DNA of 12,423 nt from an uncultured Collinsella sp. (GTDB lineage Bacteria; Actinomycetota; Coriobacteriia; Coriobacteriales; Coriobacteriaceae): assembly GCA_900551655.1 (NCBI GenBank), contig URWM01000021.1:1-12423 (forward strand). The letters run 5' to 3'. A program made the translations under genes and the position numbers. Below are positions 323 to 12,353 of this stretch, one piece after another. The notes beneath the pieces were generated by a model. The model ran no database searches. It worked only from the letters and a program-made list of their open reading frames with translations, and had not been told where the DNA came from. Each line of letters starts with the position of its first letter. Positions within the stretch are counted from its first letter, which is position 1.

Positions 323-822
323 GGTCCAAGCCCCTTCCGACACGGGATTGTCAGCTCAACCCGACCCTTACCCATACGGACGAACATAACTCGCCAGGGG
401 AAGCCCCTGAAGGCCGTGCGCCACAACATGAGGCCGAATCCGCCCCCGGCTGGACAGGCCAACAACGAAGGAGCACACGGAACCGGCGCGGCGTTACAAC
501 CGTCCCGGCAAGCGTGTCACTTGGCCAAGTCATGATGCCGACAAACCCGGAAATGCTCCAACGGAGCGCCGAACGAGGGTAACAATATAAAGCCGTGCAA
601 CACGCGTTGGACGACCAGAACAACCCAAACAAAGGCCTGCCGGTCCCACCTTCAAGCCCAATAGCAAAATGTGCATCAGCGGATTTGCAGCGATACAAGT
701 CTCAACCGTCACCATTACACCGCAGCGCGCCTAGTCCCACTCATCCTACTGCAAATGTCCCAGAACGAGAAAATGACCAGCTTAACATGCCACCCTTTAT
801 ATCCGCACGCGCGTAATTCAAC
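323..822. other. About 500 bases without a convincing gene
   Basis: Open frames exist here on both strands, but none combines a ribosome binding site, consistent codon use and a protein-like composition. They are rich in Arg, Pro, Ser and Cys, as shadow frames in GC-rich DNA are. The left half is GC-rich like the flanking chromosome, and base composition drifts towards AT to the right, so the left edge of the low-GC island probably lies in this stretch. I see no tRNA, integrase, transposase or clear direct repeat that would mark an attachment site. Confidence 0.5.
395..409. repeat. Short perfect inverted repeat upstream of the 1-322 gene
   Basis: CAGGGG, a 3-base spacer AAG, then CCCCTG form a perfect 6-bp stem about 75 bases before the minus-strand ATG at 322. 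There is no T-run on either strand, so an ordinary Rho-independent terminator is unlikely. It could be an operator or a 5'-leader hairpin of the minus-strand gene, or chance. Confidence 0.3.
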
Positions 823-1449
823 TCATAAGGACCGGCTATCCCTTACCTGTGACACAATCTCAAACGCACAGAACAGAATCATCAGTCCAATCATCGCATA
901 AGAGGCAGCCGAACCTTCAAGCACTATTCCACAAAGAACAATCTCCGCGCCGCCAATAAGAACTGTTACCAGGCGCTCTGCCTTTTTGCTCTCGCCGCTC
1001 GCATAAAAAGGCGGCAAAGCGCACAAGATCACATATAGCCCGGGAAGGGAATACAGGATCGATAGTCCAAGCCCCCCATCAACCGCAGTGCTTTGCGTAA
1101 GAATCAACTGAACCCAAACGGCAATTATCACTGAGCAGGTTGTCGATAAAAGAAGACTAGAAATATAGCACGCAACAAAGTTCCGTCGCATTCGAACAGA
1201 GAAATCCGCGAACTCTCTTCGCCGCGTGGAAACAATAAGGTACACAGAAATTGCAATAGAACCAATCAGAGAAAACAGCGGAACAACCAGCAATTCAAGC
1301 TTATTACCCCATCGATCAACCACACCCCCACTCCAATGAGCGGGAATTGTATCAGGGAGGACTGACCAAGCCGCCCATAGAATCAGAAATGGAAGAATAG
1401 AGAGGATGAAAGATGATAACACTGCAGCTATTTTTTTTGAGGCTCTCAT
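823..1449 (-). CDS. DUF1648 / SdpI-like membrane protein, candidate immunity protein
   Basis: A 208-residue integral membrane protein with about six hydrophobic segments (roughly residues 9-29, 53-73, 92-115, 127-148, 161-178 and 181-200). After the first helix comes LPDTIPAHWSGGVVDRWGNK (residues 31-50), matching the DUF1648 signature LPxxIPxHW...G..D.WG.K. DUF1648 is found in SdpI, the immunity protein against the Bacillus toxin SdpC, and total length is close to SdpI (about 207 residues). The later SdpI-type RTPW motif is not visible, so it is only a partial match. It is transcribed away from the RiPP precursor, which suits an immunity or resistance role, but that is inferred from context. 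The start is uncertain: ATG at 1449 has AAGGAG 11 bases upstream, while an in-frame GTG at 1476 has GGAG 6 bases upstream and would add MGAQGDAES. Base composition is AT-rich like the rest of the island. Confidence 0.75.
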   Translation of the reverse strand: MRASKKIAAVLSSFILSILPFLILWAAWSVLPDTIPAHWSGGVVDRWGNKLELLVVPLFSLIGSIAISVYLIVSTRRREFADFSVRMRRNFVACYISSLLLSTTCSVIIAVWVQLILTQSTAVDGGLGLSILYSLPGLYVILCALPPFYASGESKKAERLVTVLIGGAEIVLCGIVLEGSAASYAMIGLMILFCAFEIVSQVRDSRSL

Positions 1450-1524
1450 CGATTCCGCATCTCCTTGCGCGCCCACATTCCACTCCGCCTCAAATCAAGT
1501 ATAAATAAAAACTTAAATGCAAGT

Positions 1525-1552
1525 TTGTTTTGATTAGTATGGAAACTATATC
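1525..1552 (+). promoter_or_regulatory. Candidate promoter for the RiPP operon
   Basis: In the AT-rich divergent intergenic region, TTGTTT (1525-1530) and TATATC (1547-1552) are separated by 16 bases and point towards the precursor gene at 1648, giving a 5' leader of roughly 90 bases. Matches to consensus are only moderate. In the opposite direction I find a TATACT but no well-spaced -35 for the membrane protein. Confidence 0.3.
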
Positions 1553-1575
1553 AATTTAGTTCTAATTTGTTCGTA

Positions 1576-1590
1576 GTATCAAATCGATAC
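1576..1590. repeat. Small palindrome in the divergent intergenic region
   Basis: GTATC, a 5-base spacer, then GATAC form a perfect 5-bp inverted repeat downstream of the candidate promoter and before the precursor's ribosome binding site. It could be an operator or a leader hairpin. No regulator gene is visible in the island to pair it with. Confidence 0.25.
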
Positions 1591-1634
1591 CGACACTAGC
1601 ATGACGTAGCCTTTCAAGACAGCTATTCAACATT

Positions 1635-1640
1635 GGAGGT
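1635..1640 (+). promoter_or_regulatory. Strong ribosome binding site that fixes the precursor start
   Basis: GGAGGT lies 7 bases before the ATG at 1648. An in-frame TTG at 1633 would overlap this site and adds only five residues, so the ATG is the better start. The near-consensus site suits a highly translated precursor peptide. Confidence 0.75.
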
Positions 1641-1647
1641 CACCGCT

Positions 1648-2373
1648 ATGGACAATGTGAACCACCTAAACGAACTCTCAATACAGTCCCAGCTTAGCAT
1701 CCTTGAAAAACTGGTCGCGGACGCGGAACAATCTACCGACGCAAGACGCGATTTCGAAGCTCAGCCTCGTGCCGTATTCCAGAAATATGGAATTACAGAC
1801 CTCCAAATCAAAGCGGGAAATCGAAAAGTCTCTCTGTACGAACTGGTGGAGTCAACCGAAAAGGAGGCGCGTGTCCCCGTTGCACGCGCAGTATATCGTC
1901 GTATCCAACTTGCATATTATGACGAGGACAACGAAGCTGAGCCGCAAACGATACCTCTCGTAAACGTTGTACTTAATGCAAACGCAGTAACGAACGCAAA
2001 CATCATTCTGAACGCAAACGGAATGGCAAACGCAAACGCGAATGCTCAAAACAACGCCAACCTTAAGTACGACGTCAACACAATGGGCTATGGATCAGCT
2101 ATTTTTATGAACAAACCTGATGTTGTTGAACTATCGGAATCGTACAAACAAACTTCTGTTTTCAGGAAATTTGATCAAGAGGGCTTGAGTGCAGCGAGGC
2201 AAGCAGCCATGCTTAAAACAGCAATCAAGAATTCCAGCTCCAATACCATCAACCCCGAAGGGGCTTCCAATGGGGTCGCCCGCGGGTCTTATCGCTCCGT
2301 CGAATTCGAAGTTACTTACTCCGAGAACGAAGGGACCTTGGTAATCACCGACGCCCGTTTGCTCGCGGCATGA
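1648..2373 (+). CDS. Putative RiPP precursor with nitrile-hydratase-like leader and Asn hexad repeat
   Basis: A 241-residue Cys-free protein with three parts. Residues about 9-50 resemble nitrile-hydratase-like leaders: an amphipathic helix (LSILEKLVADAEQ) followed by DFEAQPRAVFQKYGI, which fits the usual pattern of a helix, a DP-like turn and a small GI ending. Residues 106-138 are an Asn-rich repeat built on NAN triplets every six residues. Residues 139-241 are a polar tail containing an Ala-rich helix (about 179-195), a Ser/Asn-rich linker (195-212) and a strand-rich end (SYRSVEFEVTY...). No signal peptide or membrane segment is seen. The stop overlaps the start of the radical SAM gene (ATGA), indicating translational coupling with its modifying enzymes. 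Absence of Cys rules out sacti-, ranthi- and lanthipeptide thioethers. In known proteusins the core lies at the C-terminus, so the long tail is odd. A secreted or structural repeat protein is the main alternative. Precursor role: moderate confidence. Confidence 0.7.
   Translation: MDNVNHLNELSIQSQLSILEKLVADAEQSTDARRDFEAQPRAVFQKYGITDLQIKAGNRKVSLYELVESTEKEARVPVARAVYRRIQLAYYDEDNEAEPQTIPLVNVVLNANAVTNANIILNANGMANANANAQNNANLKYDVNTMGYGSAIFMNKPDVVELSESYKQTSVFRKFDQEGLSAARQAAMLKTAIKNSSSNTINPEGASNGVARGSYRSVEFEVTYSENEGTLVITDARLLAA
1963..2061 (+). repeat. Hexad Asn repeat (NANxxx) inside the precursor
   Basis: Codons 106-138 encode Asn at 106, 110, 112, 116, 118, 122, 124, 128, 130, 132, 135, 136 and 138. 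NAN triplets begin at 110, 116, 122 and 128, separated by AVT, IIL and GMA, so the register is exactly six residues (18 bases). The DNA shows the same period through repeated gaacgcaaac-like units. The intervening residues are hydrophobic or small. The last copy is less regular (ANAQNNAN). Confidence 0.85.
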
Positions 2374-3449
2374 TTTCCGAAAGCTCGCAGCACGTGCTGT
2401 TCCGCAGACCTCGAATGCTGACATTTATAACAACATATAAATGTGGCGCTGTGTGTGATCATTGTCTGATGAGCTGCACTCCGAACAACAGTGACAGGCT
2501 TACTCTTCCCCAAATGCGGCAATTCATCGATAGCTTCGCCGAAGTATGCGTCGGAAGTGGTGTTGTTGTGTTTACGGGCGGAGAATGCACCCTTCTTGGC
2601 GATGACCTTCTCGAGGCCATCGCATATGCGAATTCTTTAGGACTCTTTACTCGAATTGTAACGAATGCGTGGTGGGCAAAAAGCGAAAGAGACGCAGAAA
2701 CGTTCCTCAACGAATTGAAGTCATGTGGCCTTGACGAAATCAATATCAGCTGCGACGACTTTCATGCGGAATATATACCCCTCGAGAATGTGCGCAACCT
2801 TTGGAACTCAGCAAAAACAATGGGCTTTCAAACTCTCGGCATTGCGGTCTGCAGAGATAACAACAGTACAATCAGCCCGGCATACCTGTGCAAGTACCTT
2901 AATGAAGACATTCCACTCCTGCATCAGTTCGACGATAATACCCAGCCTCCCAGCGCGCCAGCCCGCTTCATCACGGATTCAGGCATCACGCGAATTGGGC
3001 GCGCACGAAATCTCAGTCTCAACCAAAATGCGCGACCGCAGGCACGTCTCTTAGCGTCACACTGTTCCGACTGCGGCCGAGACTTCGTTATTTCCCCAAA
3101 CTGCCATCTTGCACCCTGCTGCGGAATAAATGCAGAGGGAACTTGGCTTTTCGATCTTGGCAAAATCAATCTGACGGATGACATTAATGAACTGCAGCTG
3201 CTCCTACTTAATTACATACAATACATAGGACCAGGAGGACTGCTGAAGCACTTGCGCACGAGCGGAGGCCTTTCTTCATTTGGGCGCTCAAGCTACCTCT
3301 CTCAATGCGAGATTTGCGAAGACATCGCCCTCTCGAAAGAGGCACAGACCTGTCTTGCAAAGCTAGCTCCTAAACTGGCAGCCGACTTGATTGTCGAGAC
3401 TAAATTCGAGACTACCTTTATCGGAAATGGGTCTGATATACATGATTGA
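2370..3449 (+). CDS. Radical SAM peptide-modifying enzyme
   Basis: A 359-residue radical SAM protein. The CX3CX2C cluster motif is at Cys25, Cys29 and Cys32 (YKCGAVCDHC) and binds the 4Fe-4S cluster that cleaves S-adenosylmethionine; GGE at residues 70-72 is the usual SAM-contact motif after a hydrophobic strand. The C-terminal part is Cys-rich: Cys232, 235, 245, 250, 251, 313, 316 and 328, including DCGRDFVISPNCHLAPCCG, which resembles a SPASM/twitch-type auxiliary cluster region. The start ATG overlaps the precursor stop by one base, and its 3' end overlaps the methyltransferase start, so the three genes form an operon. The natural substrate is therefore probably the preceding Asn-rich peptide. 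Likely reactions on a Cys-free substrate are L-to-D epimerisation or C-C/C-O/C-N cross-linking; the sequence does not decide which. Family assignment is firm, reaction is inferred. Confidence 0.85.
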   Translation: MISESSQHVLFRRPRMLTFITTYKCGAVCDHCLMSCTPNNSDRLTLPQMRQFIDSFAEVCVGSGVVVFTGGECTLLGDDLLEAIAYANSLGLFTRIVTNAWWAKSERDAETFLNELKSCGLDEINISCDDFHAEYIPLENVRNLWNSAKTMGFQTLGIAVCRDNNSTISPAYLCKYLNEDIPLLHQFDDNTQPPSAPARFITDSGITRIGRARNLSLNQNARPQARLLASHCSDCGRDFVISPNCHLAPCCGINAEGTWLFDLGKINLTDDINELQLLLLNYIQYIGPGGLLKHLRTSGGLSSFGRSSYLSQCEICEDIALSKEAQTCLAKLAPKLAADLIVETKFETTFIGNGSDIHD

Positions 3450-4584
3450 AGTGCTACCCTCTTTAAATTCGCTCTCGAGTAATCCACTCCGTAGATTGGA
3501 CACTCTTGGAGTAACAGATTTTTTAGACACACTTGACATATCTATAGATCCTTTTGAATGCGCGCATCGCATCTGGGATCAACTTGACAGGGAGCATCAA
3601 GAGATCGTCTCCTTCCTGATGCTAGGTGGAGAGATTGATCTCGATTCAGAAGTGGCAAAAAGAAGTCTGCTGAAAGGCACTGTTGAAACCATAGCCTCAC
3701 TCGGGCTGCTAAGCAAGCACAATGGCAATGCCTCCCTTTCCGGTTTATCTCTAATCCGATATCATGGCATCTGGCTTTTTGCCGATGCGCCATCACCCTC
3801 GCCTTTACTATATTTTGGCTCTGATTCAATTGGGCTCGCTCGTCGGCTAAGCCCATCCCCCGGAAAGAATGCCTTAGACCTCTGCTCTGGACCAGGCATC
3901 CAGGCACTCATACTGGCAAAATCTGGAATGCACGTCACGGCGATAGATATCAATCCAATCGCCTCAGAAATCTGCCAACTAAACGCACTGGTCAATGGTA
4001 TTAGCGAAGATTTAACTGTTCTAACCGGAAGTCTCTACAACGCACTAAACAATATCGAAAGCTCTTGCAGCTATGAACTCATTACGGTGAATCCTCCTTT
4101 GCTCCCAATCCCAGAAGACGTACCATACCCCTTCGTTGGCGATGGCGGCCCAGATGGCCTCAACATCACAAGCAAGGTTATTCGAGGTGCAGGAGATAAA
4201 CTCACTGATAGCGGATATCTCTCTGCAATTGGAATGATTGGCCTTGGAACCAACAATCAATCAGCATTTGAACGAATACAGAACGATTTGTTGCAAGCTG
4301 GCCTCAATGGTGTCTTGACAATAATCTCGAGCTTTAACCTCGGACCCCAATCTGGCTGGATCGACGGTATCGCATACACATCTGTTGCACATGCTCCAGG
4401 AAAATATTCCAGCAAAGAGGAGGCTGTAAAAGAGATATCGCGCGCATACAAAAAAATCCACTACGACCGCGTCTGCACCTATCACTTGAAGGCGTGGAGG
4501 GAGAGACAGCCCTTTCAAAATCCCATCCTAACGATTCAAGACTGCTCCGCAGATGGCAACCCACTTGGCCCCTGGATCCTCTAA
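3442..4584 (+). CDS. Class I SAM-dependent methyltransferase with NPPL motif
   Basis: A 380-residue protein with an N-terminal helical domain (about 1-100), a short beta linker (RYHGIWLFADAPSP), then a Rossmann methyltransferase domain. Motif I is ALDLCSGPG (144-152), motif II is VTAIDINP (165-172) and motif IV is NPPL (217-220). The (N/D)PP(Y/F/L) motif is typical of enzymes methylating planar nitrogen, such as PrmC/HemK on Gln amides and N6-adenine or rRNA guanine methylases, and the overall order resembles the actinobacterial two-domain MTS-type family. Placed last in the precursor operon, it may methylate Asn side-chain amides of the product; that is inference. The start is uncertain: ATG 3442 overlaps the radical SAM stop by 8 bases and has a GGAAATGGG stretch about 10 bases upstream; ATG 3427 and TTG 3391 are in frame. 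Codon use is AT-rich like its neighbours. Confidence 0.8.
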   Translation: MIEVLPSLNSLSSNPLRRLDTLGVTDFLDTLDISIDPFECAHRIWDQLDREHQEIVSFLMLGGEIDLDSEVAKRSLLKGTVETIASLGLLSKHNGNASLSGLSLIRYHGIWLFADAPSPSPLLYFGSDSIGLARRLSPSPGKNALDLCSGPGIQALILAKSGMHVTAIDINPIASEICQLNALVNGISEDLTVLTGSLYNALNNIESSCSYELITVNPPLLPIPEDVPYPFVGDGGPDGLNITSKVIRGAGDKLTDSGYLSAIGMIGLGTNNQSAFERIQNDLLQAGLNGVLTIISSFNLGPQSGWIDGIAYTSVAHAPGKYSSKEEAVKEISRAYKKIHYDRVCTYHLKAWRERQPFQNPILTIQDCSADGNPLGPWIL

Positions 4585-4610
4585 AGCATCCGTCATACGA
4601 AAGCAGGTCA

Positions 4611-4648
4611 ATAGGCTGCGCGCCACTCTCTGATGACGCGCAGCCTAT
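4611..4648. terminator. 12-bp perfect hairpin after the methyltransferase
   Basis: ATAGGCTGCGCG (4611-4622) pairs perfectly with CGCGCAGCCTAT (4637-4648) around a 14-base loop, 26 bases after the methyltransferase stop. The trailing sequence (ctcatttcccc) has only a weak T-run, so it is either an imperfect Rho-independent terminator or an RNA 3'-end stabiliser. It would separate the biosynthetic operon from the exporter stump at 4852. Confidence 0.55.
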
Positions 4649-4795
4649 CTCATTTCCCCCGCGCTTTACCGAGCCCGACTCACACCTCATAGTTGGCACC
4701 GGTTTTCAAAATGCAAGATTCCGCATACAAAATCACTTCTTCTGTCTAGGTGGCAGACCTACGATTTTTGTAGTATAAAGTTCCTCTCAATGCCT

Positions 4796-4815
4796 TCAAT
4801 CTATTTCGAGATTGA
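4796..4815. repeat. 7-bp inverted repeat before the exporter stump
   Basis: TCAATCT and AGATTGA are separated by 6 bases (ATTTCG). It lies 36 bases upstream of the ATG at 4852 and could be an operator or a leader hairpin for the exporter gene. The rest of 4649-4851 is AT-rich and I see no gene in it. Confidence 0.3.
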
Positions 4816-4851
4816 GAAGAACTTGCATCGGGTTTCATAGAAGCGATATAG

Positions 4852-5079
4852 ATGATACGTTTTGTCCTATCTATATTCCGACATACATCAGGATGCCTCG
4901 TCTTTATCGTCATTTCAATAGTCGGCTTGGCCCTTTCCCACATTGCCCCCTTTTTGAACGGTAAATTAATTGACTTCCCGCACGTGGACCTCGTGGACAG
5001 GCCCCCTTGTGTAGCTGCACCCGAGGCGCCTCCCCGTCGCCCTCCAGCGCCGGGGTTCCCCTCCATCACGAAGAGGTAA
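4852..5079 (+). pseudogene. ABC exporter, truncated after the first membrane helix
   Basis: The first ~42 residues (4852 to about 4977) look like the N-terminus of an ABC exporter permease: a basic start (MIRFVLSIFRH), one long hydrophobic helix (VFIVISIVGLALSHIAPF) and then LNGKLID, matching the PxxxGxxID pattern that ends the first helix in this superfamily. After that the frame enters GC-rich DNA and becomes a Pro/Arg-rich shadow ending in a TAA at 5079, so the remaining membrane helices and the whole ATPase domain are missing. An in-frame TAG just before the ATG fixes the start. Its AT-rich composition and position make it the likely exporter of the island's RiPP, lost at the junction. 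If the contig is misassembled here, the intact gene may exist elsewhere. Confidence 0.55.
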
Positions 5080-5165
5080 TCCCCGTCCGGCCTCGCCGTC
5101 TCTGCAACGCCGAGCCTCCCGAGCGACTCGAGGAGGGCGGGCTCGTCCCAGGAGATTTGACAATA
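4966..5165 (-). pseudogene. Frameshifted C-terminal remnant of an unknown GC-rich gene
   Basis: On the minus strand a codon-biased frame starts without a start codon near 5159 (ISWDEPALLESLGRLGVAE..., then DGDYLFVMEGNP), with an in-frame TAG just upstream at 5168-5166. Removing one extra base near 5051 continues it as ALEGDGEAPRVQLHKG, and removing one G from the five-G run at 5002-5006 continues it as PVHEVHVREVN followed by TAA at 4968-4966. The composite reads like a natural acidic protein end of about 60 residues, with the strong G/C third positions of the chromosome. The N-terminus is absent. I do not recognise the family. Both lesions are single-base gains, one in a homopolymer, so sequencing error is possible; otherwise it is a decayed gene left at the island's edge. 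Confidence 0.45.
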
Positions 5166-5200
5166 CTATAGAGACACGTCCCAAATTAGCTACTCAGTAG

Positions 5201-6076
5201 TTACTGCTGCTGGGCGCGGCGGGCGGCTCGGCGGGCCCTTGCTTCCTGGATCTCATCGAGGTGAGCGATGATCTCGGAGGCGCTCTCCTCGATCGCCTTG
5301 CCGTCGGTACGCACTACAAAGCAACCCAGGCGCTTCATGAGAGCACGAGCCTCCTCGAGCTCGCTTCGCACGCTCTCGGGCTCGGCATAGGAACCGGCAA
5401 CGGCACGCGCATAGTCGTCGCCCAGGCGGCTATCGCGAATCTCGGAAATCACATCGACGGTCGAAATCAGACCGAACAACCGCAACGGATCGACCTCGTA
5501 AATCGACTTGGGCGGCTCCATACCGTGCGCCAACGGAACGTTGGCGACCTTGTAGCCCTGATAGGCCAAATACATCGACAGCGGCGTCTTGGACGTGCGG
5601 GATACACCCAGCAGCACGATATCGGCATCCGACAGATCATCGCAGCCGCGCCCGTCATCGTGCTCGACAAAGTACTCCATGGCCTCGATGCGGTGGAAAT
5701 ACCTGTCATCGGTCTTATGGATCACACCCGCCACTCCTTTTGGCGGCACGCCAATAAGCGACGACAGCACCGCGAGCGACGGGCCGATCAGGTCGACCGA
5801 GCGAATGTGCAGCATGCCCAAGTAGTCGAGTACGCGAGCACGAAGCGCCGGGTCGACGATGGTATGGAACACGGCGATATCGCGATGGTCGGCATCGACT
5901 CGCGGGCCCACAAACGACTTGACCTGCTCCACCGAGGTCACCTTAGACAGACGTAAAACACGAAAAGCCCCTTCATCAAATTGCCCGGAGGCCGCAAGCA
6001 CCACCTCACAAGCGGTATCACCGAGCGAGTCGGAGATAACGATAACGGTGGGACGAGCGGTGACCGGGCAATCCAT
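5201..6076 (-). CDS. ppsR: Bifunctional kinase-pyrophosphorylase regulating PPDK / PEP synthase (DUF299)
   Basis: A 291-residue protein of the DUF299 (PF03618) family. These enzymes inactivate pyruvate phosphate dikinase, or PEP synthase, by ADP-dependent phosphorylation of an active-site Thr, and reactivate it by phosphate-dependent dephosphorylation. Visible hallmarks are the N-terminal strand and turn VIVISDSLGDTA (11-22), the P-loop-like LLGVSRTSKTPLSMYLA (155-171), and NVPLAHGMEPPKSIYEVDP after it. Length is slightly above the usual ~270 because of an Ala/Arg-rich tail ending RAARRAQQQ. AAGGAG lies 6 bases before the ATG. It is the last gene of the operon; glyS ends 34 bases upstream, and that gap holds a small hairpin (TGCGC-ATAA-GCGCA, 6090-6103). 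Its expected target gene ppdK is not in this window; the DNA past its stop is the scar next to the island. A perfect 11-base palindrome (CTACTCAGTAG, 5190-5200) abuts the stop codon. Confidence 0.92.
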   Translation of the reverse strand: MDCPVTARPTVIVISDSLGDTACEVVLAASGQFDEGAFRVLRLSKVTSVEQVKSFVGPRVDADHRDIAVFHTIVDPALRARVLDYLGMLHIRSVDLIGPSLAVLSSLIGVPPKGVAGVIHKTDDRYFHRIEAMEYFVEHDDGRGCDDLSDADIVLLGVSRTSKTPLSMYLAYQGYKVANVPLAHGMEPPKSIYEVDPLRLFGLISTVDVISEIRDSRLGDDYARAVAGSYAEPESVRSELEEARALMKRLGCFVVRTDGKAIEESASEIIAHLDEIQEARARRAARRAQQQ

Positions 6077-6110
6077 GCGGGGCTCCTTTTGCGCTTATGC
6101 GCAGGCTAGC

Positions 6111-8207
6111 TTACTTTTTGCGGGCAAGCTCACCAATGTTGGCGATGCCGGAGAATACGGCCTCGAAGCGGTTGAGCAGCTTAAGGCGATTATCGCGGAG
6201 CTGCTCGTCCTTGTCCATGACCATGACCTCGTCAAAGAAACGGTCGATGGGGGCACGCAGGGCGGCCAGAGCGGTAAACGCGGCAGGGTAATCCTCGGCA
6301 GCAAGGGCGGCATCGACAGCGGTCTGAGCGGCCTCGGAGGCGTCGGCAAGCGCAAGCTCGACCTCGCCCATCAGGCTGCGGTCGTACTCCGCACCCAGCT
6401 CGGGCTTGGAGATATGCGCGGCGCGGGCGTAGGCAGTCGCCAGGTTGTCGAAGGTCTCGGCGTCGTTCTTGCGGGCCTCGTCGAGGGCGGCGCAGCGGGC
6501 GAAAAAGACCGACGGGGCAATGATGTGCACCGCGGATACGGCGGCGACGGTATCGGCCGGGATCTTCTCGTCACGGGCCATGCTCACCAGACGACCGTGG
6601 AAGAAGTCGCGGACCTGCTGGGCAACCTCGGCGGCGTCAAACTCAATGCCCTGCTCGCTATAGAGCTCGAGTGCAAAGTCGATGAGCGACGTCGGGTCAA
6701 TCGGCAGACGGTCGCGCAGGATGTTGATGATGCCGATGGCGGCACGACGCAGCGCGTACGGGTCGGAGGAGCCGGTCGGGGGCTCGCCGATGGCAAAGAT
6801 ACCGGCGATGGTATCGAGCTTGTCGGCGCAGGCCACGATGCAGCCAGCGGTGCCCTCGGGCAGCTCGTCGCCGGCAAAGCGGGGACGATAGTGATCGCGA
6901 ATAGCGTGAGCGACCTCTTCGTTCTCCCCCATCGCGATGGCGTAGTAACCGCCCATCACACCCTGCTGGCTCGTGAACTCGACGACGGCGTTGGACACCA
7001 GGTCGGCCTTGCACAAGTGCGCGGCGCGGCCGGCATCGGCGGCCAGGTGGGCACCCAGGTGAGCCTCGCGGGCAATAGCGAGCGCGAGCTGCTCAATACG
7101 CTCGGACTTAGAGAGCACGCTGCCGAGCTTCTCCTGGAAGGCGACCTTGGCCAGGCGCTCACGGAACTCATCGAGGGAGATCTTCAGATCCTCCTCGTAG
7201 AAGAACTTGGCGTCGTCCAGGCGGGCGCGCACAACGCGCTCGTTGCCGTCGATCACGCGCTCGGCATTCTCGGGCTTGCTGTTGGAGACAATCACGAACT
7301 CACGCGTCAGCTTGCCCTCGCCGTCATAGATCGGGAAGTAGCGCTGGTTGGTGAGCATAGACTCGCAGATGATCTCGTGCGGGACCTTGAGGAACTCCTC
7401 GTCGAAGGTACCGACGAGCACCGTCGGCCACTCGCAGAGGTTGATGACCTCCTCGAAGACCTTCTTGGGCGTATCGACGTGGCAGCCGGGGCGCGCAGCC
7501 TCGACCTCGGCGATACCGGCAAGGATGGCCTCGCGACGGCGCTCGGCAGAAAGCACGCCTGCGTCCTCGAGCACCTGCTCGTAAACAGCGGGGCTGGCGA
7601 CCACATGGTCACCGGGGCCAAGCACGCGATGACCGCGCGTGGTGTTACCACTCGTCACGTCGGCAAACGACACGGGCACAACGTCCTCGCCCAGAAGGCA
7701 GCAGATCCAACGGACCGGACGAACAAAGGTCGCGTGCTCGTGGCCCCAGCGCTGAGAGCGGTAGTTGGGCCACTGCAGGCCGGCGATGGTCTTCTCGCAC
7801 AGGGCCGTCAGGATCGGGGTGGCCGGGGCGGAAGGAATGTTCTTCTCGGCAAAGACGTACTCACGGCCGTCGGTGTCCTCGCGACGAACCAGATCCTCGG
7901 CAGCCACACCGCACTTGCGGGCGAAGCCCTGGGCGGCCTTGGTGGCGTTACCGTCGGCATCGAAGGCGATGTTGGCCGCGGGGCCACGCTTGACCTCGTG
8001 AACCTCATCGGTCGCGGTGGCGACGTCGGCAACGAGCGCGGCCAGGCGACGCGGGCTCGAGATCACGCGGACCTCGCCGTGAGCCAGACCGGCCTCGTCG
8101 AGACCCTTGGCGATCATGGTACCGAGCTGTTTGACGGCATTGTTCAGCGGTGCAGAGGGCATTTCCTCCGTACCGATCTCAAACAGGAAATCCTTAGCGT
8201 CTGCCAT
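6111..8207 (-). CDS. glyS: Glycine-tRNA ligase beta subunit
   Basis: A 698-residue beta subunit of the alpha2beta2 bacterial-type glycyl-tRNA synthetase, which recognises tRNA-Gly and works with the catalytic alpha subunit in the cytoplasm. The N-terminus DFLFEIGTEEMPSAPL is the family signature, and the body contains the expected blocks, such as RGHRVLGPGDHVVASPA, EFLKVPHEIICESMLTNQRYFP and the HD-like region around VMGGYYAIAMGE and DKLDTIAGIF, ending in an anticodon-binding helical domain. Length is normal for the family. It begins 3 bases after the glyQ stop, with an AGGTGG ribosome binding site inside the end of glyQ, so the two subunits are translationally coupled. The whole gene is intact with no frameshift. 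Confidence 0.97.
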   Translation of the reverse strand: MADAKDFLFEIGTEEMPSAPLNNAVKQLGTMIAKGLDEAGLAHGEVRVISSPRRLAALVADVATATDEVHEVKRGPAANIAFDADGNATKAAQGFARKCGVAAEDLVRREDTDGREYVFAEKNIPSAPATPILTALCEKTIAGLQWPNYRSQRWGHEHATFVRPVRWICCLLGEDVVPVSFADVTSGNTTRGHRVLGPGDHVVASPAVYEQVLEDAGVLSAERRREAILAGIAEVEAARPGCHVDTPKKVFEEVINLCEWPTVLVGTFDEEFLKVPHEIICESMLTNQRYFPIYDGEGKLTREFVIVSNSKPENAERVIDGNERVVRARLDDAKFFYEEDLKISLDEFRERLAKVAFQEKLGSVLSKSERIEQLALAIAREAHLGAHLAADAGRAAHLCKADLVSNAVVEFTSQQGVMGGYYAIAMGENEEVAHAIRDHYRPRFAGDELPEGTAGCIVACADKLDTIAGIFAIGEPPTGSSDPYALRRAAIGIINILRDRLPIDPTSLIDFALELYSEQGIEFDAAEVAQQVRDFFHGRLVSMARDEKIPADTVAAVSAVHIIAPSVFFARCAALDEARKNDAETFDNLATAYARAAHISKPELGAEYDRSLMGEVELALADASEAAQTAVDAALAAEDYPAAFTALAALRAPIDRFFDEVMVMDKDEQLRDNRLKLLNRFEAVFSGIANIGELARKK

Positions 8208-11873: not shown

Positions 11874-12353
11874 ATGGAAAGACGCGAACATACATACGGT
11901 TATGAGGATGCTGCGGGCGTCACGCCGCCGCCCTGGACGGGTCCGGCGGTGGGCCTCATGGACCTCGATGCATTTTTTGCGAGCGTGGAGATGCTCGATC
12001 ATCCCGAATGGCGCGGAAAGCCGCTCATCGTGGGCGGAGACGCCGAGTCGCGCGGCGTCGTGTCCACATGTTCGTACGAGGCACGTCGCTTTGGCGTGCG
12101 CTCTGCCATGGCCTCGGCCGAGGCGCGGCGCTTGTGCCCGCAAGCCATTTGGACGCACGGGCACTTTGATCGCTACCGCGAGGTGAGCGCGCAGGTCATG
12201 GCGATTCTTGCCGAGGAGACGCCGCGCGTTGAGCGCGTATCCATCGACGAAGCCTTTATCGATATCACACCGGGTCGCTTTGCGCCCGAGGACCCACTGC
12301 TGGTTGCACGGCGTATAAGCGACCGTGTGGCAGCGCTGGGAGTGACGTGCTCC
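11874..12353 (+). CDS. dinB: DNA polymerase IV (Y family), 3' end missing
   Basis: The first 160 residues of a translesion DNA polymerase. After a ~28-residue N-terminal extension comes GLMDLDAFFASVE with the first catalytic Asp (Asp30 here), then GKPLIVGGDAESRGVV, SYEARRFGVRSAMASAEA, and the second catalytic pair Asp125-Glu126 in RVERVSIDEAFIDIT, all diagnostic of DinB palm and fingers. The genomic frame ends at residue 160 (GVTCS, base 12353), where the family continues with a stretch like IGxxxxK; instead the contig turns into sequencing adapter, so the thumb and little-finger domains are absent because of assembly, not biology. It is divergent from rpsP. The ATG at 11874 lacks a ribosome binding site; the conserved domain alone could also start at the ATG of residue 29. 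Confidence 0.93.

Follow-up and report, generated by a model that had tools for sequence, protein, structure and literature searches.

What kind of molecule is made by the small gene set in the AT-rich island of contig URWM01000021.1, from an uncultured Collinsella sp.? The window, the whole 12,423-nucleotide stretch of this contig analysed here, carries in that island overlapping genes for a precursor peptide, a radical S-adenosylmethionine (SAM) enzyme and a methyltransferase (Table 1). A first-pass annotation, made from the letters alone, had proposed an undescribed cluster for a ribosomally synthesized and post-translationally modified peptide (RiPP) in a Coriobacteriia-type host, with polytheonamide as the nearest relative. 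The cluster and the host are supported, and the comparison with polytheonamide is right in spirit. Judged from homology and residue periodicity, the cluster probably makes a beta-helical membrane peptide of alternating D- and L-residues, N-methylated on Asn, via an EpeE-type epimerase, with a polytheonamide-like outcome. The present analysis adds the assignment of the radical SAM enzyme to the EpeE type and of the methyltransferase to the AerE type, the DUF5969 identity of the precursor tail, the lack of a match to an NHLP or Nif11 leader model, and a mobile-element end.

The precursor and its periodic core

The precursor contains no Cys in its 241 residues, as the first-pass annotation had stated, and its Asn residues are arranged in the hexads NANAVT-NANIIL-NANGMA-NANANA-QNNANL (residues 110–139). 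In the Asn-richest 40 residues, 10 Asn pairs are six positions apart against a shuffle mean of 3.95, and 78 of 91 pairs are evenly spaced against a mean of 44.3; none of 5000 shuffles reached 10 or 78, respectively. The core Asn residues lie one beta-helix turn apart and are mostly of one parity. A core can be recognised in 22 aerofaciens-type variants from the databases; the 34-residue stretch is found in 18 of them, and the remaining four differ in length by −6, −12, +3 and −2 residues. Whole hexads account for two of these four changes, for which DNA slippage is another possible cause. The main database cluster of the precursor, P0001, holds 878 member sequences. The listed open reading frame (ORF) of 246 residues starts at an upstream TTG, and the shorter form starting at ATG was adopted.

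The C-terminal tail is a member of DUF5969, to which Pfam assigns no function, and RefSeq names the gene 'DUF5969 family protein'. The tail is read here as a putative RiPP follower, which would give this domain a role. Precursors of the same type occur at L015, L016, L023 (Klebsiella) and L024 (Thermus); the L016 tail scores just 12.9 bits with the DUF5969 model, and the L015 and Klebsiella tails have no match, yet align by MAFFT. At the N-terminal side, the leader segment DFEAQPRAVFQKYGI resembles the ends of NHLP leaders by eye, and a shared 'F..NP' segment is likewise apparent by eye only. However, no Pfam or NCBIfam leader model, including NHLP and Nif11, matched the window precursor at E ≤ 1, and membership among the NHLP leaders is not supported. 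No leader family appeared among the NCBIfam matches of the L015, L016, Klebsiella and Thermus precursors, and the Streptomyces canus relative matched TIGR04509 ('NHLP-related') at 0.0012, below the cut-off.

The radical SAM enzyme and the methyltransferase

The radical SAM enzyme groups with EpeE, the epipeptide epimerase, both by sequence and by fold. The proposed hydrogen-donor cysteine is kept, C251 corresponding to EpeE C223, and the EpeE-like CC pair is found in 23 of 23 sequences. Furthermore, the fold match to EpeE is far above those to sactipeptide and other radical SAM maturases among the matches listed. A review reports no significant homology between EpeE-type enzymes and proteusin epimerases (PMC8326336), and on that description the enzyme would stand apart from the PoyD/AerD epimerases, families at which no search was aimed.

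The nearest solved relative of the methyltransferase is AerE, the aeronamide D-Asn N-methyltransferase (7rc2; 3.8e-28 with a profile, 2e-6 with the single sequence), which also ranks first by fold from a low-confidence model. The AerE residues Y137, D141 and N231 are conserved in six of six methyltransferases. The three genes are coupled as the first-pass annotation had described: the radical SAM ATG at 2370 overlaps the precursor stop (ATGA), and the methyltransferase ATG at 3442 precedes the radical SAM stop at 3447–3449, with the same methyltransferase start in RefSeq for a near-identical genome.

RefSeq begins the radical SAM gene at Met34, 33 codons late, as a 'hypothetical protein' (L021 12001–12100; window 2370–2469), and the CxxxCxxC cluster motif is thereby lost; this late start may conceal the gene from genome mining. 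The homologue P0067 of genome G028 is shortened in the same way.

Recurrence of the gene set

By sequence, the gene set is present in another Collinsella, in another Coriobacteriales genome and on Klebsiella and Thermus plasmids, which bears out the expectation that the same gene order would be found elsewhere with different precursor repeats. A radical SAM profile at E ≤ 1e-30 matched seven of 396 Coriobacteriia genomes: four aerofaciens-type genomes, G028 (L015), G361 (L016) and G023, the last with a yyd-like locus; in six of the seven the match is full length. In L015 the order is DUF1648, precursor, radical SAM, methyltransferase and, after it, a full-length ATP-binding cassette (ABC) exporter homologous to the window's stump; in L016 it is SdpI, precursor, radical SAM and methyltransferase, with an exporter farther upstream past a transposase-like ORF. 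The plasmid pmk4 of Klebsiella sp. PL-2018 carries the set with the core NALALA-NANAVA-NANALA-NANIMA-NVNGWA, and pTA14 of Thermus aquaticus carries it with a core that includes NANWKV-NANVHY. An SdpI or DUF1648 gene is also a neighbour at each of the four other loci with both a methyltransferase and a precursor. Both enzymes occur in Rhizobium leguminosarum Vaf10, beside a transposase-like ORF. In total, 13 plasmid records had a match. Broader Actinomycetota searches matched 3/396, 2/138, 3/5 and 3/226 genomes, including G001 and G361, and the rest belong mostly to other radical SAM families.

DUF5969 was found in 4/43 genus, 4/396 class and 1/296 phylum genomes, with the same four genomes accounting for all matches. 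Precursors regularly separated from the enzymes, which the first-pass annotation had named as evidence against a cluster, were not the pattern observed: the radical SAM gene adjoins the DUF5969 precursor in 4/4 genus genomes. Database entries joining the leader to foreign frames do exist, at the protein level only.

A radical SAM gene with a candidate precursor and no AerE-type gene, as judged within the fetched stretch of about 4–8 kb on each side, is found in Eleftheria terrae, Streptomyces canus, the archaeon Halocatena salina, Lactococcus lactis, Enterococcus mundtii, two 7–8 Mb Actinomycetota genomes (one counted), a group of viral contigs (one counted) and L052. Members of this kind with Val/Ala-rich, gramicidin-like cores are known from bacteria, from viral contigs and from the plasmid of an archaeon. 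Over 13 loci, Asn hexads (at least two pairs six positions apart per 25 residues) accompany the methyltransferase in 5/5 loci with it vs 0/8 without it, the eight precursors being picked by position and composition. An uncorrected exact test would give 1 in 1287 for this division, with related loci and a threshold chosen post hoc.

Omitted from the count were L044 (a near copy of L043); L001–L003 and L018 (C. aerofaciens, as the window); L048–L050, L053 and L054 (precursor type as in L051, core within six changes); L022 (methyltransferase present next to a transposase-like ORF, but no precursor seen); L032 (distant) and L017 (yyd-like), neither with an assigned precursor; L028/L029 (homologues of the methyltransferase, with no EpeE-like gene); L045–L047 (radical SAM proteins of other families); L055/L056 (weak); L033/L034; G783; and the records from Macrococcus and A. 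tepidum. The database homologues P0052–P0170 are protein entries without DNA context.

Proposed biosynthesis and alternative explanations

In the proposed pathway, the precursor would be made with its leader, its core of ~43 residues and its DUF5969 follower, segments that are seen in the sequence and whose roles are putative. The EpeE-type enzyme would abstract C-alpha hydrogens, and C251 would give a hydrogen back on the opposite face; repeated action at alternate positions would yield D-residues there, with Asn on one parity. With D-residues at alternate positions a chain can coil into a beta-helix that takes about six residues for each turn, as gramicidin and polytheonamide do, and the length of polytheonamide is close to that of the core. 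For polytheonamide this turn is given in PMC11285071. By analogy with AerE and PoyE, the AerE-type enzyme would N-methylate the Asn side-chain amides. Asn of one parity, at positions i and i+6, would line up one over another on the outer face, one turn apart; methylation would stabilise this stack, which would clamp the helix. Leader and follower would then be removed, and an ABC exporter would release the peptide into the membranes of competitors, where it may form pores, while the SdpI/DUF1648 protein would protect the producer. The SdpI-type neighbours are consistent with a membrane target. Because the cluster's own exporter is truncated, release would need another exporter, such as the ABC exporter upstream in the island, or else the locus is decaying; the window copy may be silent or served by that exporter, and confidence in the pathway is limited accordingly.

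Several observations weigh against this pathway. The exporter ends at one and the same junction in the window and in the four other genomes in which this junction was read (G001, G004, G005 and G006, represented by L001, L002, L059 and, for G001, L018), and the cluster has no protease gene. The methyltransferase is about 18% identical to AerE, its structure model is poor (predicted local distance difference test score 59), its search model was built on six sequences, five of them from the 13 loci counted, and AerE-like genes exist without a nearby EpeE-like gene, for example in Rhizobium beside phosphonate genes. The 13 loci are not evolutionarily independent. L016 passes narrowly, with two pairs six positions apart and a whole-protein shuffle P of 0.066, and the 40-residue stretch of it that is richest in Asn does not coincide with the core and shows nothing, with none of these pairs and 6/10 even. 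Stray pairs of this spacing in two of the eight methyltransferase-less precursors (Lactococcus and L052, the latter with three core Asn sharing one parity) mean that the rule linking hexads to the methyltransferase is not absolute. In addition, characterised epipeptides contain just two epimerised residues, according to a review (PMC8326336), so that 15–20 such residues here would be an extrapolation.

The exporter stump, with a further 2-base loss in L002, speaks for a rather unlikely alternative, in which the enzymes are as described and the C. aerofaciens locus is the remnant of a mobile island without a secreted product. Altered forms in the database, in which the leader has changed frame or the follower is truncated (P0015, P0018 and P0020, with 107, 25 and 148 member sequences; P0015 is of the first kind and P0020 of the second), the leader remnants, and ratios of nonsynonymous to synonymous substitution (dN/dS) of 0.87, 0.78 and 1.34 in some comparisons, point in the same direction. 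On the other side, L001, L002, L003 and L018 all keep a full-length precursor and radical SAM enzyme, and L001, L002 and L018 a full-length methyltransferase (the L003 contig ends inside it), an exporter of the same general type lies upstream, and P0001 has 878 member sequences. The other cluster-gene dN/dS values are 0–0.58, and all these ratios, resting on few changes, are weak. The two epimerised residues of epipeptides and the EpeE type of the enzyme would also fit an unlikely case, sparse epimerisation at two or a few residues, the product being a membrane peptide that is methylated but forms no complete beta-helix. However, Asn parity and one-turn spacing are seen in 4/5 methyltransferase loci and have no obvious use in an alpha-helix, and long stretches rich in Val, Ala and Ile are present in several relatives that lack the methyltransferase.

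Radical SAM RiPP enzymes are versatile, and an MGYG motif follows the hexads in the core-bearing Collinsella variants examined; a cross-link or a backbone excision at M-G-Y-G is nevertheless improbable, given the CC pair and the fold match described above. The motif is missing from the Klebsiella and Thermus precursors, and a splicease reading of it was rejected on that ground. Low-complexity drift as the origin of the Asn-rich stretch, in an otherwise ordinary protein whose neighbours are coincidental, is scarcely credible: its composition is simple and its short DNA repeats are prone to slippage, yet the identical pattern stands beside the same two enzymes in different hosts. The helical D/L-peptide is the preferred product. 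A broader proposal has about an even chance of being correct, namely that an epipeptide-family epimerase, recruited to set D-residues at alternate positions and paired with an AerE-type methyltransferase where Asn hexads are present in the core, constitutes a second, separately assembled route to polytheonamide-type channels within a broad, overlooked class of ribosomal D/L-helix peptides, one of them in human gut Collinsella.

Comparison with known systems

The nearest known chemistry is that of polytheonamide and aeronamide (PoyA–PoyE, AerA–AerE), and the cluster most likely works in the same manner. It shares with them the core Asn spaced by six and, by homology only, an amide N-methyltransferase of the AerE type, and a beta-helical membrane peptide is expected here too. 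It differs in its EpeE-type epimerase, in having no NHLP leader model match, and in its follower of about 95 residues and its SdpI-type neighbour. The scanned window ORFs also lack the dehydratase and the B12 radical SAM C-methyltransferase of the known pathways. PMC11285071 describes part of these known pathways. The cluster is not filed as a proteusin, since its epimerase is placed with a different family and its leader matches no model; neither point excludes kinship.

With epipeptides (epeXEPAB/yydFGHIJ) the cluster shares the epimerase family, including the donor Cys, but it has a long precursor with a follower instead of a short EpeX, and a methyltransferase; none of the six scanned window ORFs is an EpeP-like or other peptidase or an EpeAB transporter. 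In the SDP toxin/immunity system, the pair is SdpC and SdpI. An SdpI/DUF1648-type protein beside a presumed membrane-peptide precursor is shared with it, whereas the window precursor has no SdpC family match and is predicted to be modified enzymatically.

Known sources of polytheonamide-type channels are the symbiont of a sponge and a handful of environmental bacteria, as PMC11285071 also describes. A plausible maker in a gut commensal would bring such chemistry into the human microbiome. The matched Asn hexads and AerE-type enzyme connect the core sequence with an enzyme in a way that can be tested, and the EpeE-family enzyme may act many times along one peptide. A literature search, with subscription journals mostly outside its reach, gave no title or abstract opening on the pairing of EpeE-type and AerE-type enzymes and no paper with DUF5969.

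Host, mobility and organization of the island

Table 1. Features of the island, in window positions
Feature	Positions	Strand	Remarks
SdpI-type membrane protein (DUF1648), presumed self-protection	823..1449	−	PF07853, E 9.1e-13
Precursor ribosome-binding site GGAGGT	1635..1640	+	from sequence
Precursor (leader, core and follower), 241 residues	1648..2373	+	start ATG 1648, stop 2371–2373
Leader, residues about 1–104	1648..1959	+	
Predicted core, residues about 105–147 (~43)	1960..2088	+	Asn periodicity; putative borders
C-terminal follower, DUF5969, residues about 160–239	2125..2364	+	PF19394, E 2.9e-8, 34.4 bits (cut-off 25)
EpeE/YydG-type radical SAM epimerase (predicted), 359 residues	2370..3449	+	C25/C29/C32 cluster motif, C250–C251
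AerE-type side-chain amide N-methyltransferase (predicted), 380 residues	3442..4584	+	NPPL motif
ABC exporter N-terminal stump, 42 residues	4852..4977	+	cut at GC-rich junction near 4977
IS110-type right-end sequence	5157..5186	+	island's right edge; 30 bases, 97%

The host is of the Collinsella aerofaciens type: the radical SAM gene is 97–100% identical in three named C. aerofaciens contigs, and genome G001 (L018) aligns with the window across 11.8 kb at 96.6%. The AT-rich character of the island was confirmed, with a GC fraction of 0.436–0.506 in 500-base windows over 751–5000 vs 0.564–0.668 from 5001 onward; the island has 44–51% GC, and the genes right of 5201 lie in 56–67%. These genes, named from a related record, are a PEP synthase regulator, glyS/glyQ, lepB, trmD, rimM and rpsP. 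The record NZ_OY725717 (899 kb), labelled 'Plasmid 6', contains ribosomal-protein and tRNA-synthetase genes and was taken as a piece of chromosome.

Compared with L018 and L001, the window is 97–100% identical up to about 5190, then 84–98% to about 11000 and then 98–100%, and dS is 0.006 in the precursor vs 0.16–0.43 in two genes right of the island. A near-identical island with diverged next genes suggests that it was transferred recently or went through a sweep. The island in L002 stops at window position 5187 (L002 10789–10817) and is followed by different DNA, so that the island occupies two chromosomal sites in Collinsella. Its last 30 bases match the sequence just after an IS110-family transposase gene; this motif is present in 11/43 genus genomes and, at four of seven loci inspected, adjoins the transposase gene. 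The first-pass annotation had seen neither a tRNA nor a mobile element to explain arrival: the window indeed contains no tRNA, nor any Rfam match, but the IS110-type end and the two sites supply the mobile-element trace. The dN/dS values (SdpI 0.87 and precursor 0.78 vs L002; radical SAM 1.34 vs L003) come from few changes, too few for selection tests.

Apparent decay forms were also seen among P0012–P0050 (13 of P0023–P0050 read), with frame-changed leaders, truncated followers and leaders joined to foreign frames. In L015, 55-nucleotide direct repeats (6570–6624 and 12159–12213, 96%) surround the whole G028 cluster and possibly mark the boundary of a 5.6-kb insertion; as a window feature this repeat was dismissed, having no counterpart there. 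A phage origin was rejected, as the Klebsiella radical SAM protein gave no phage record, and neither the window radical SAM protein nor the methyltransferase profile matched a viral contig. A wider radical SAM profile gave nine viral-contig loci, two of them weak and seven (L048–L054, IMG/VR contigs) full or split relatives. In the latter, an EpeE-like gene stands with a Val/Ala-core precursor, as it does on the archaeal Halocatena plasmid (L027 4434–6035). It adjoins phage tail genes by eye in L051 and L054, and in L054 a transposase-like ORF interrupts it. Among E. coli genomes, megablast alone found no cluster, and one genome matched over the SdpI gene alone.

The divergent SdpI-like gene reported earlier is confirmed; its ORF extends to GTG 1476, and the RefSeq start in L021 gives the shorter form. 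The exporter stump is equally real, aligning to the N-termini of three ABC exporters with z values of 6.4, 10.3 and 17.3 (2000 shuffles each). Other loci also have neighbours of their own. Serine hydrolase genes adjoin the Thermus (L024 6248–7270, beta-lactamase-like) and Eleftheria (L025 3245–4555) sets and possibly remove the leader. After the set on the Klebsiella plasmid (L023 8142–13002) come genes for a 562-residue protein that no Pfam model matches, for a lysine-acyltransferase-like protein and for HlyD/peptidase-ABC export. Rhizobium plasmids have AerE-type homologues by phosphonate genes (L028 4920–6068, L029 4980–6077), with no EpeE-like gene seen. Another Collinsella (L017 7260–10615) has a yyd/epipeptide-like locus by eye, with a peptidase, two ABC parts and a radical SAM gene that an in-frame TAG divides in two. 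Left of the window, L021 4523–8888 encodes the upstream ABC exporter (4523–6127; same general type, 22.7% identity to that of L015), a weak DUF3784 protein, PqqD, another radical SAM enzyme and a 51-residue Val/Ala-rich peptide, perhaps a second RiPP-like pathway in the island.

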